Shown piece by piece: positions 7,415-28,103 of a stretch of DNA of 37,171 nucleotides. The stretch is from positions 1 to 37,171 of the forward strand of contig DASUYB010000128.1 in assembly GCA_036377595.1 (NCBI GenBank), read 5' to 3'. Made by a program: the position numbers and the translations under genes. The notes under the pieces were generated by a model, which was not told the DNA's origin, did no database searches, and was given only the letters and a program-made list of their open reading frames with translations. How positions within the stretch are numbered: the stretch's first letter is position 1; each line of letters begins with the position of its first letter. This stretch comes from Longimicrobium sp. GTDB lineage: Bacteria; Gemmatimonadota; Gemmatimonadetes; Longimicrobiales; Longimicrobiaceae.

Positions 7415-7458
7415 TCCCGTTCTGGCCGGACGAACGTACATCCCGGGAACTGCCTTGT

Positions 7459-7528
7459 CTCACGCGGAGACGCGGAGACGCGGAGCACTGATCGAGGCTG
7501 TTTCCGCGTCTCCGCGTCTCCGCGTGAG
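7459..7528. repeat. Three-unit hairpin repeat, copy A
   Basis: The left arm (7459-7485) starts CTCACGCGGAG and holds three units of CGCGGAGA with 8-nt period. The right arm (7502-7528) is its reverse complement with one difference, ending CTCCGCGTGAG. The stem is about 26 bp with a 16-nt loop. It lies between converging genes (kinase, plus; DUF433, minus). See copies B, C and D at 18961, 26129 and 28025. Confidence 0.85.
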
Positions 7529-7582
7529 TCCAGGGGTGCCCGGGAGCGGCACGGTCATTTGCGGATGGGCATGGCGGCGGCA

Positions 7583-9903: not shown

Positions 9904-9929
9904 CCCTTCGCGGCTGCGCCGCGAAGGGG
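9904..9929 (-). terminator. Intrinsic terminator downstream of wrbA
   Basis: On the minus strand GCCGCGAAGGG-type arms (9904-9914 and 9918-9929) form an 11 bp stem with a tight GCA loop, followed by TTTTCGCG. It reads as a rho-independent terminator for transcription arriving from wrbA, placed about 120 bp before the ggt start. Confidence 0.6.
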
Positions 9930-9996
9930 CCCTCTCCCCCCGGCCCCCTCCCCCAAAACCGACTGGGGGAGGGGGAGACCTCAGCGCGGGGAGAGG
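9930..9996 (-). repeat. Multi-hairpin intergenic element, variant copy
   Basis: The core stem CCCCCTCCCCCA...TGGGGGAGGGGG with the loop AAACCGAC (plus-strand reading) lies at 9944-9975, flanked by CCCTCTCC and GGAGAGGG. The flanks differ from the four full copies (the GGCGC stem is replaced by ACCTCAGCGCGGGG). It lies between wrbA and ggt, both minus, and on their strand reads the loop as GTCGGTTT. Further GC-rich remnants fill 10019-10088. Confidence 0.75.
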
Positions 9997-11485: not shown

Positions 11486-11563
11486 GCCCTCTCCCTGGCG
11501 CTTCGCGCCTGTCCCTCCCCCAAAACCGACTGGGGGAGGGACGGGGGCTCGCTTCGCTCGCGG
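11486..11563 (-). repeat. Multi-hairpin intergenic element, copy 1
   Basis: Read on the minus strand, the element has a short GAGCGAAGCGAGC hairpin, then an 11 bp stem TCCCTCCCCCA / TGGGGGAGGGA around the loop GTCGGTTT (11512-11541), then GGCGC-GAA-GCGCC, then AGGGAGAGGG. It lies between two minus-strand genes (HI0933-like, thioesterase). A heptamer array (AGTGCTG) adjoins it at 11414-11440. Confidence 0.85.
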
Positions 11564-11589
11564 GCACTTAGCGCGGACGGAATGCCAAC

Positions 11590-14408: not shown

Positions 14409-14493
14409 CGGCGGAACCCGTCGAAAGAGATCGGATCAGGTTGAGATCATCGGCGGTTCGTGACCGCGGCCCTTGGTGCGCGCCTCGCTATCC

Positions 14494-14902
14494 CGCCCTC
14501 TCCCTGACGCTTCGCGTCTGTCCCTCCCCCAAAACCGACTGGGGGAGGGACGGGCTCGCTTCGCTCGTACGCGCGGACGCAGGATCATCGCCGCCGCGCG
14601 GATTTCCGCAACGCGGCAGGATGCGGACGCAACTACCTCTTCCGGTACGGGAGAGGTGGCGAGCCTAGGCGAGCCGGAGAGGGCGCGGTGCCGCGTCGCG
14701 CCCTCTCCCTGACGCTTCGCGTCTGTCCCTCCCCCAAAACCGACTGGGGGAGGGACGGGCTCGCTGCACTCGTACGCGCGGATGCAGGATCATCGCCGCC
14801 GCGCGGATTTCCGCACGCGGCAGGATGCTGATGCAACTACCTCTCCCGGTACGGGAGAGGTGGCGAGCCTAGGCGAGCCGGAGAGGGCGCGATGCCGCGT
14901 CG
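14494..14902. repeat. 205 bp tandem duplication containing the multi-hairpin element
   Basis: Two direct copies (14494-14698 and 14699-14902), about 95% identical by eye, lie head to tail. Each contains the multi-hairpin element (14496-14568 and 14701-14773), then a stretch with GCAGGATCATCGCCGCCGCG, then ACTACCTCT...CCGGTACGGGAGAGGTGG and GCGAGCCTAGGCGAGCC. The spacing between matching bases is 205. Differences are scattered substitutions and a single-base deletion. There is no gene in the 518 bp gap between the ArsC-like start and the DUF4105 stop; this duplication fills most of it. Confidence 0.88.
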
Positions 14903-14926
14903 CTCACAGCAGTCGGCAACTCGCAC

Positions 14927-17543: not shown

Positions 17544-17560
17544 GGCGATGGCGTCGCGCC

Positions 17561-17636
17561 GCGAGCGAAGCGAGCCCAGGTCCCTCCCCCAGTCGGTTTT
17601 GGGGGAGGGACAGGCGCGCAGCGCCAGGGAGAGGGC
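17561..17636 (+). repeat. Multi-hairpin intergenic element, copy 4
   Basis: The plus strand reads GAGCGAAGCGAGC, then TCCCTCCCCCA-GTCGGTTT-TGGGGGAGGGA (17581-17610), then GGCGC-GCA-GCGCC, then AGGGAGAGGG. It is inverted relative to the copies at 11486, 14496 and 14701, matching the plus direction of its neighbours (dienoyl-CoA reductase, cinA). It occupies most of the 132 bp between them. Confidence 0.85.
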
Positions 17637-18932: not shown

Positions 18933-18960
18933 TCCCGATCATATCACAAAAAAGAAATAG

Positions 18961-19029
18961 CTCACGCAGAGCAGCAGAGGCAGCAGAGAACTGATCGCTT
19001 TTCTCTGCTGCCTCTGCTGCTCTGCGTGA
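18961..19029. repeat. Three-unit hairpin repeat, copy B (likely bidirectional terminator)
   Basis: The left arm at 18962-18990 pairs perfectly over 29 bp with 19001-19029 around a 10-nt loop. The arm has three 9-nt units (ACGCAGAGC, AGCAGAGGC, AGCAGAGAA). It is preceded by an A-rich stretch (CACAAAAAAGAAATAG) and followed by ATCAATCTTTTC, so it has U tracts in both directions. It lies between converging cinA and the ABC-F gene. Confidence 0.88.
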
Positions 19030-19052
19030 CATCAATCTTTTCTGGATTTTCA

Positions 19053-20996: not shown

Positions 20997-21647
20997 CGTG
21001 TCTCGCCGGGGGTGATGAAGAGCGGGCGAATGTACACCCGAGCGGGGGCGGGGTGCGAGTGGGGCGGCGCCGTAGACCCTCATCCCCCCAGCCCCCTTCT
21101 CCCGACAGCAGGAGAAGGGGGAGACCTCAGCGCGGGGTCGGCTGCGTCGCGAGGAGCGGACGCTCGCGCGGCCGGGGGTGGCCCCTCCCCCGGCCCCTCC
21201 CCCGCTTCGCAGGGGCGGGGAGACCTCAGCGCGGGGGGATACTGAATTTCCGGATCAACTGTGCATTGGCGCGGAAGGAATAGGCATGTCATTCCGAAGG
21301 CGCTGCGCCGACCTGTCCTCCATGCCGTAGCCGTGGCGCCTGAGGAATCTGTGGCCGGCTCCCGAGCCACAGTCCGCCTGTCGCTCGGACGCAGGCCACA
21401 CAATCAATTGCGGCAGCCGGTATTCGGCTTCGGTGCACTGCGGATGCCCGCCTTCCCGCCCGTGATCGTTGGCGGGGATCGCACGCGTCAGAACCGGCGG
21501 CTCGCCCGCGTTTCGCGGATGTGGGGACTTCTTCGGGGGGTTGTGGGGATGATTACCTTCGGGGGTGGGCGCGGTGCGTGGTTCTTGCACCGCCGGATTC
21601 GCGGAGCCGGAACCCATCTCCGGCCGCCCCCTGCCGGCGTGAGGCCG
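20997..21647. repeat. Repeat-filled divergent intergenic region
   Basis: These 650 bp between divergent genes hold no convincing gene. At 21079-21240 are two GC-rich hairpins, CCCCCTTCTCC/GGAGAAGGGGG and CCCCTCCCCCGCTTCG-type, each followed by the same GGGAGACCTCAGCGCGGGG tail, which also occurs at 9973-9992. At 21288-21350 a GTCATTCCGAA...GAGGAATCT pair resembles the modules at 1641 and 16285. The stretch 21360-21640 contains GGCCGGCTCCCGAGCC and nothing else I recognise. Confidence 0.6.
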
Positions 21648-24480: not shown

Positions 24481-24527
24481 CCGCCCGGCCCGGTGCCCGT
24501 CCGGATGCTCTCGCTCGATACGCGGCG

Positions 24528-24634
24528 ATAGATCCTTCGGCCTGCGACCATCGGTGCGGACGCTGATTGCTGTCTGGCCGGCCTCAGGATGACGTCGGTG
24601 CCGGACGCCCACTGGGCACTGGGCACTGGGCACT
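24528..24634. repeat. GATCCTTCGG / CTCAGGATGAC module and CACTGGG heptamers
   Basis: ATAGATCCTTCGGCCTGCGACC (start 24528) to CCTCAGGATGACGTCGG (end 24598) is nearly the same as the module at 1820-1890. It is followed by three CACTGGG heptamers (24610-24632). It fills the gap between the converging DUF4105 and SDR genes, together with the terminator at 24645. Confidence 0.75.
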
Positions 24635-28024: not shown

Positions 28025-28103
28025 CTCACGCAGAGGTCGCAGAGGGCGCAGAGAACTCAGTGCAGCGATGAGTTCTCCGCGTCCTCTGCGCCCTCTGCGT
28101 GAG
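28025..28103. repeat. Three-unit hairpin repeat, copy D
   Basis: The left arm at 28025-28059 and right arm at 28069-28103 pair over 35 positions with three mismatches. Units are GCAGAGGTC, GCAGAGGGC, GCAGAGAAC. It is followed by ACCTTCTTTTTCTG on the plus strand and preceded by CTAAAAGATTTG, so it could end transcription from both sides. It lies between the converging 27533 gene and the beta-lactamase-fold gene. Confidence 0.88.

Follow-up and report, generated by a model that had tools for sequence, protein, structure and literature searches.

The window analysed here, a stretch of 37,171 nucleotides taken from a 7.2-Mb draft genome of Longimicrobium sp. in 208 contigs, contains four class A copies and one class B variant of a repeat of about 80 nt, all present at the places where an earlier note on this DNA had reported them. 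All five lie between same-direction genes with their sense strand on the gene strand, as had also been claimed. The class A copy at 17555..17636 on the plus strand (covariance model hit of 104.5 bits, placed by the class A alignment) consists of a left tag, three hairpins and a tail, all on the plus strand: hairpin H1 at 17561..17575, GCGAGC-GAA-GCGAGC, with tandem G-A mismatches and a GNA loop; hairpin H2 at 17580..17611, with a 12-bp stem GTCCCTCCCCCA/TGGGGGAGGGAC and the loop GTCGGTTT; hairpin H3 at 17613..17625, GGCGC-GCA-GCGCC; and the invariant right terminal tail AGGGAGAGGGC at 17626..17636, beyond which conservation ends sharply. The core originally noticed, a stem TCCCTCCCCCA/TGGGGGAGGGA with the loop GTCGGTTT, is exact, and class A adds one closing G-C pair to it. 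On the sense strand, the general form of class A is the left tag, H1 as GCGAGC-GNA-GCGAGC, 4 nt, H2 as GTCCCTCCCCCA-GTCGGTTT-TGGGGGAGGGAC, 1 nt, H3 as GGCGC-GNA-GCGCC and then AGGGAGAGGGC, and the order and strand of the three hairpins are constant across class A copies. The column consensus of the tag over 37 aligned copies is GTAGCC, which is found exactly in 12, and a second subfamily mostly carries CGTC; CGTC is also found in most copies of the related genome G014, while classes B and C and the versions of the relatives G012 and G017 have no clear tag.

The remaining window copies are all on the minus strand. One class A copy lies at 11486..11567 (108.2 bits), and two others, both with the H3 stem GACGC/GCGTC, lie at 14495..14574 (89.7 bits) and 14700..14779 (84.8 bits, with a slightly decayed H1), being the first and second copies of a single tandem duplication (about 205 nt), which the earlier note had rightly recognised. 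The duplication (14491-14903) comprises the element and a second conserved hairpin block, and a block similar to the latter occurs without the element in a spacer of the relative G011 (L191). The class B variant at 9929..9995 (41.7 bits) reads TGAGGTCTCC-H2-GGCCGGGGGGAGAGGGCC and has neither H1 nor H3. At 21111-21137 and 21210-21236 lies a class B-like frame (GGGGAGACCTCAGCGCGGGG) from which the usual core is missing; elsewhere in the genome, class B frames carry hairpins such as CCCCTCCCCTGCGCAGCGGGGGAGGGG, so that hairpins look exchangeable.

Other repeats share the window. Another family, ATAGATCCTTCGGCCTGC...CAGGATGACGTC, is present in direct and inverted copies at 1640-1891 and 24520-24601, and also at a further locus (L278). 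Arrays of short AGTGCTG/AGTACG-like repeats lie beside genes at 454-556 and in spacers within L191, L193 and L202, and occupy orthologous spacers in several species. Long hairpins, nearly perfect and with CTCACGCAGAG-like arms, are found at 7453-7534, 18947-19044 and 28025-28103, with similar sequence in orthologous spacers of G012, G013 and G016.

A search of the whole genome for the 30-nt core, allowing up to 3 mismatches, gave 57 matches in forward and 54 in reverse orientation, and the reversed control pattern gave 0; with 111 matches against none, the window copies are not due to chance. A 28-nt core has 121 matches in this genome and is present in 8 of 21 genomes of the family Longimicrobiaceae, this one included, the other counts being 174 in G017, 103 in G012, 88 in G001, 41 in G011, 39 in G013, 17 in G014 and 14 in G010. 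The scan of related genomes that the earlier note had proposed was carried out with a covariance model trained on 37 class A copies: among 80 genomes of the order, at least 12 gave matches, every one of them in Longimicrobiaceae, and none was found in the 59 genomes outside this family, with no more than 57 candidates being scored per genome, so that the counts per genome from this model are lower bounds. A virus collection contained no match to the element. Of about 121 copies in the own genome 104 were analysed, and 98 of these are located in spacers, 5 inside predicted ORFs and 1 at a contig edge; some whole elements form inverted pairs 190-490 nt apart. Core copies within predicted long ORFs are seen on two contigs of G011, C65 and C152 (L278, L289, L290, L291 and L296), spaced by several kb, with conserved flanks and with most copies of a contig on the same strand, which looks like an element duplicated together with repeated genes.

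Since copies were collected with the core pattern, variation of H2 is under-sampled, and H1, H3 and the tail lie outside the pattern. Where the H3 of a class A copy is 13 nt long, its stem is GGCGC/GCGCC in 45, GCCGC/GCGGC in 8, GACGC/GCGTC in 4 and GGTGC/GCGCC in 1, and these counts indicate that pairing is kept through double changes genome-wide. The paired change first noted in the window (GGCGC/GCGCC at 11486 and 17561, GACGC/GCGTC at 14496 and 14701) is thus one instance of it. Over 26 distinct rows the varying pair is GC in 19, CG in 5 and AU in 2, and its covariation score was reached by 0 of 500 shuffles. The loops of H3 are GAA (49), GCA (7), GGA and GTA (1 each), and those of H1 are GAA (46), GCA (18), GGA (2) and AAA (1), meaning that all 58 H3 loops and 66 of 67 H1 loops (124/125 overall in the own genome) fit GNA with a free middle base. 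The tandem G-A mismatch of H1 (C-GA-G opposite C-GA-G) is replaced in other copies by C-G/G-C pairs (GCGCGC..GCGCGC), and the same switch from G-A to C-G is found in the H3 of G017, which is unrelated in sequence, with 39 copies CG/CG, 13 GA/GA and 0 mixed. Whole hairpins are exchanged as well: H3 is swapped for a longer or different hairpin without sequence resemblance in 9 copies, and 4 further copies carry a different H2 while retaining H1, H3 and the tail.

Such a structure could be read as a cis-acting RNA, a site of processing, stabilisation or protein binding on which selection acts in sense orientation, and both the paired changes in H3 and an RNA fold z of -4.2 are what this explanation would lead one to expect. 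The sense DNA strand gives a z of -4.1 and the antisense DNA strand, folding equally well, -4.4, and with values this similar folding energy alone cannot pick the strand or the molecule. No Rfam 15 family is hit in the window at the gathering threshold, which also speaks against a cis-acting RNA. Genes were called with a simple purpose-written codon-usage caller rather than a standard one, and the p-values below take each copy as an independent insertion.

In same-direction spacers of the own genome, 57 copies are sense and 21 antisense (p = 6e-5), a bias that is strong in class A (41:11) and not significant in class B (16:9). This bias is tied to the flanking genes (logit coefficient 0.81, 95% interval 0.26-1.5) and shows no tie in the own genome to the strand of genes farther away or to local third-position skew, a comparison of low power; an origin of the bias in the replication strand is, with the same low power, unsupported by either. 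Both the sense bias and its dependence on the nearest genes rather than on the wider neighbourhood favour an RNA function, as does the ratio in G011 (12:2). The relatives taken together do not bear this out: sense and antisense copies number 8:8 in G014 and 9:6 in G001, where the bias is absent, and 8:20 in G017 and 3:15 in G012, where it is reversed, with a between-genome heterogeneity of p = 2e-6. The claim that the orientation always gives the same RNA therefore survives only as a bias in the own genome, which is random or reversed in relatives. That copies in a single genome are codirectional, even at a p of about 1e-5, is by itself no evidence for RNA function.

The strand carrying the motifs is informative in this respect. 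In 34/37 copies of G012, the GNA loops and tandem G-A pairs lie on the strand antisense to the gene whose stop codon the copy adjoins, and the GA-type copies of G017 are likewise 5 antisense and 1 sense, so that the transcripts of these genes carry the complement, which is without these motifs. Among class A copies of the own genome, those in antisense are as intact as those in sense (H1 in 11/11 against 39/41, H3 in 9/9 against 36/36), which counts against selection as a sense RNA, and the sites are not conserved at orthologous places. d(GNA) triloops closed by C-G are stable and correspond in DNA to the GNRA tetraloops of RNA (PMC5815330), although GNA loops are not exclusive to DNA, and the H3 loops of G017 and most of those of G014 are non-GNA. 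Strand-specific recognition of mismatched hairpins has been described for the E. coli TnpA-REP and IS200/IS605 transposases (PMC8266576). Weighed together, these observations make a cis-acting structured RNA an unlikely explanation. What stands of the original proposal is a structured, strand-specific element with paired changes and a bias in its own genome; its fixed orientation does not stand.

Positions relative to gene ends bear on a second alternative, in which the repeat is a 3'-end element, i.e. a site of transcription termination or pausing that lacks a U tract, acts independently of orientation, is spread by mobility and is kept near stop codons. The right end faces a stop codon in 34/37 copies of G012, at 28-54 nt from the core in 33 of these, 19 of the 37 copies of this species lie in convergent spacers, and in all species the stop-facing side is closer than the start-facing side; each of these facts suits such an element. 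Those of the own genome do not: the distances from stops are broad, and the 98 spacer copies (78 same-direction, 9 convergent and 11 divergent) are not far off the background shares of total spacer length (65%, 14% and 20%, respectively). Neither strand has a U tract, and no terminator-like site was found at the copies; an intrinsic terminator, with a GC stem followed by a T run, was rejected on this basis. A role as a 3'-end element is accordingly judged improbable. A third alternative, in which the repeat is a conserved site in DNA that is bound by a chromosome-organising protein or acts as a G-quadruplex switch, derives from four G runs around H3, provided jointly by the tail and the right H2 arm. 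This four-run pattern is present in 242/247 copies from five species, and the G runs of the tail lie outside the search pattern. The same G runs are, however, needed by the hairpin and the right end, opening of the duplex is an assumption, and positions vary between species, leaving this explanation with very little probability.

The way in which copies are embedded in the genome points instead to a mobile DNA repeat. At the right edge the match probability falls from 1.00 at the last tail base to 0.46 one base farther on, the left edge is blurred over about 35-40 nt, flanks farther out are at background, and the copies sit in unrelated flanking sequence. Both the loop (AGTCGGTTTT here, AGTCTTTTTT in G017, AGGCAGTTTT in G012 and G001) and the version of H3 are homogenised, with one per species. 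For three window spacers, no orthologous copy was found in up to 9 relatives with aligned flanking genes: in the 11486 spacer G012 and G016 have unaligned gaps of 21 and 15 nt, respectively, against about 205 nt in the window, other relatives have other repeats at the same spacer positions, and in the 14408 spacer G017 holds a copy of its own version, elsewhere in the spacer. The copy-free orthologous spacers are not alignable to the base, as spacers of different species are too diverged for exact junctions. Joining flanks to find an exact empty site or target duplication yielded only diverged spacers or other repeats, and at a locus with three elements (L052) the flanking genes align with G011 and G014 while the spacers do not. 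The species-specific homogenised versions, the unrelated surroundings and the orthologous spacers free of copies are all consistent with a mobile DNA repeat, so that the contrast once drawn between structured RNA and DNA-level junk was the wrong one. Against this reading, the bias with the nearest genes in the own genome is real and unexplained by wider gene strand or skew, and purely random insertion would not predict it.

Candidate mobilisers are present in the genome and carry other repeats. Two PF01797 genes for IS200/RAYT-like Y1 transposases (L092:1175-2059 and L091:3832-4472) were identified, one scoring 67.3 and the other 54.4 bits with the IS200 model (cut-off 55), and one of them reaches 20.5 bits with the RAYT model, whose cut-off is 80 bits. 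They are enclosed by terminal inverted repeats of 43 nt (95%) and 62 nt (87%). The 43-nt pair has the form AGTCCGCGAAGGCGGACT...GTTGTAGCCGCGA and belongs to a different family from the element, and one pair of terminal repeats of the two Y1 genes is given as AGTCCGCGAAGGCGGACT...GTTGTAGCC. No copy of the element lies near either own Y1 locus, and across the family genomes Y1 genes do not track its presence. An element-linked Y1 transposase was rejected for lack of proximity and for the differing terminal repeats. The 43-nt repeat type also occurs gene-less in spacers of relatives, and an inverted pair resembling the Y1 transposon ends (AGTCCGCGAAGGCGGACT) at 1537-1573 and 2012-2048 in the window, with 438 nt between, is possibly a decayed or gene-less copy of a Y1 element. 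The sequence GTAGCCGCGA beside a hairpin is common to a Y1 terminal repeat and the element, and is regarded as a lead only.

When compared with known repeat systems, the element resembles REPs of the GTAG/CGTC super-families (Di Nocera et al. 2013, PMC3733652), whose hairpin has an unpaired GTAG or CGTC tag at one foot, in being high-copy, intergenic and palindromic, with species-specific versions and varying loops, in lying mostly between same-direction or convergent genes and often near 3' ends, and, more loosely, in the GTAGCC consensus or CGTC ahead of the first hairpin of class A. It differs from these single palindromes of 20-40 bp in its length of about 80 nt, its three different hairpins and fixed G-rich tail, its loosely kept tag and the lack of a linked RAYT. 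As in BIMEs or REPINs, hairpin modules are combined and parts are exchanged between copies; unlike the alternating head-to-head or tail-to-tail REPs that define BIMEs, H1, H2 and H3 follow one another in the same order on one strand. Nor is it part of a REPtron, in which a RAYT is flanked by the same repeat, given that the RAYT match is below cut-off, has other repeats around it and lacks the element nearby. The ends of IS200/IS605 elements and of TIR-associated Y1 transposons offer a further parallel, with tagged subterminal imperfect hairpins that are recognised there as single-stranded DNA with a contribution of the mismatched stems (PMC8266576); the element differs in being gene-less, and the two Y1 genes of its own genome bear other terminal repeats. 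Because it works like REPs and yet has no REPtron link, it is classed as a variant beside the named REP families rather than as a member. No earlier description was found in the open papers searched for repeats of Longimicrobium or Gemmatimonadota.

The element is therefore probably a REP/BIME-like mobile DNA repeat of Longimicrobiaceae, built of modules and non-autonomous, that would be recognised as folded single-stranded DNA, where both the mode of recognition and the class of enzyme are inferred. The motif strand would become exposed as single-stranded DNA during replication, repair or conjugation, and its row of DNA minihairpins would be recognised by a trans-acting transposase or nuclease, probably of the HUH/IS200 kind. 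The orientation bias of each species would then arise from where insertions near gene ends are tolerated or targeted, and the difference in polarity between species may reflect either insertion targeting or selection at gene ends. An effect of the element on mRNA 3' ends is possible and, if any, would be secondary.

The comparative set, with 247 copies from five genomes and a further 22 matches from another, allows the strand-specific hairpin code, the swapping of hairpins and the opposite insertion polarity to be read directly. More tentatively, the element may represent a new kind of composite mobile repeat, in which the selected unit is three one-strand DNA minihairpins with cassette swapping, a code of sheared tandem G-A and GNA triloops addresses a trans-acting enzyme, and insertion polarity at gene ends is opposite between species. 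For a phylum in which the open papers searched gave no earlier description, the comparative set makes testable what moves REP-like repeats that have no linked transposase.
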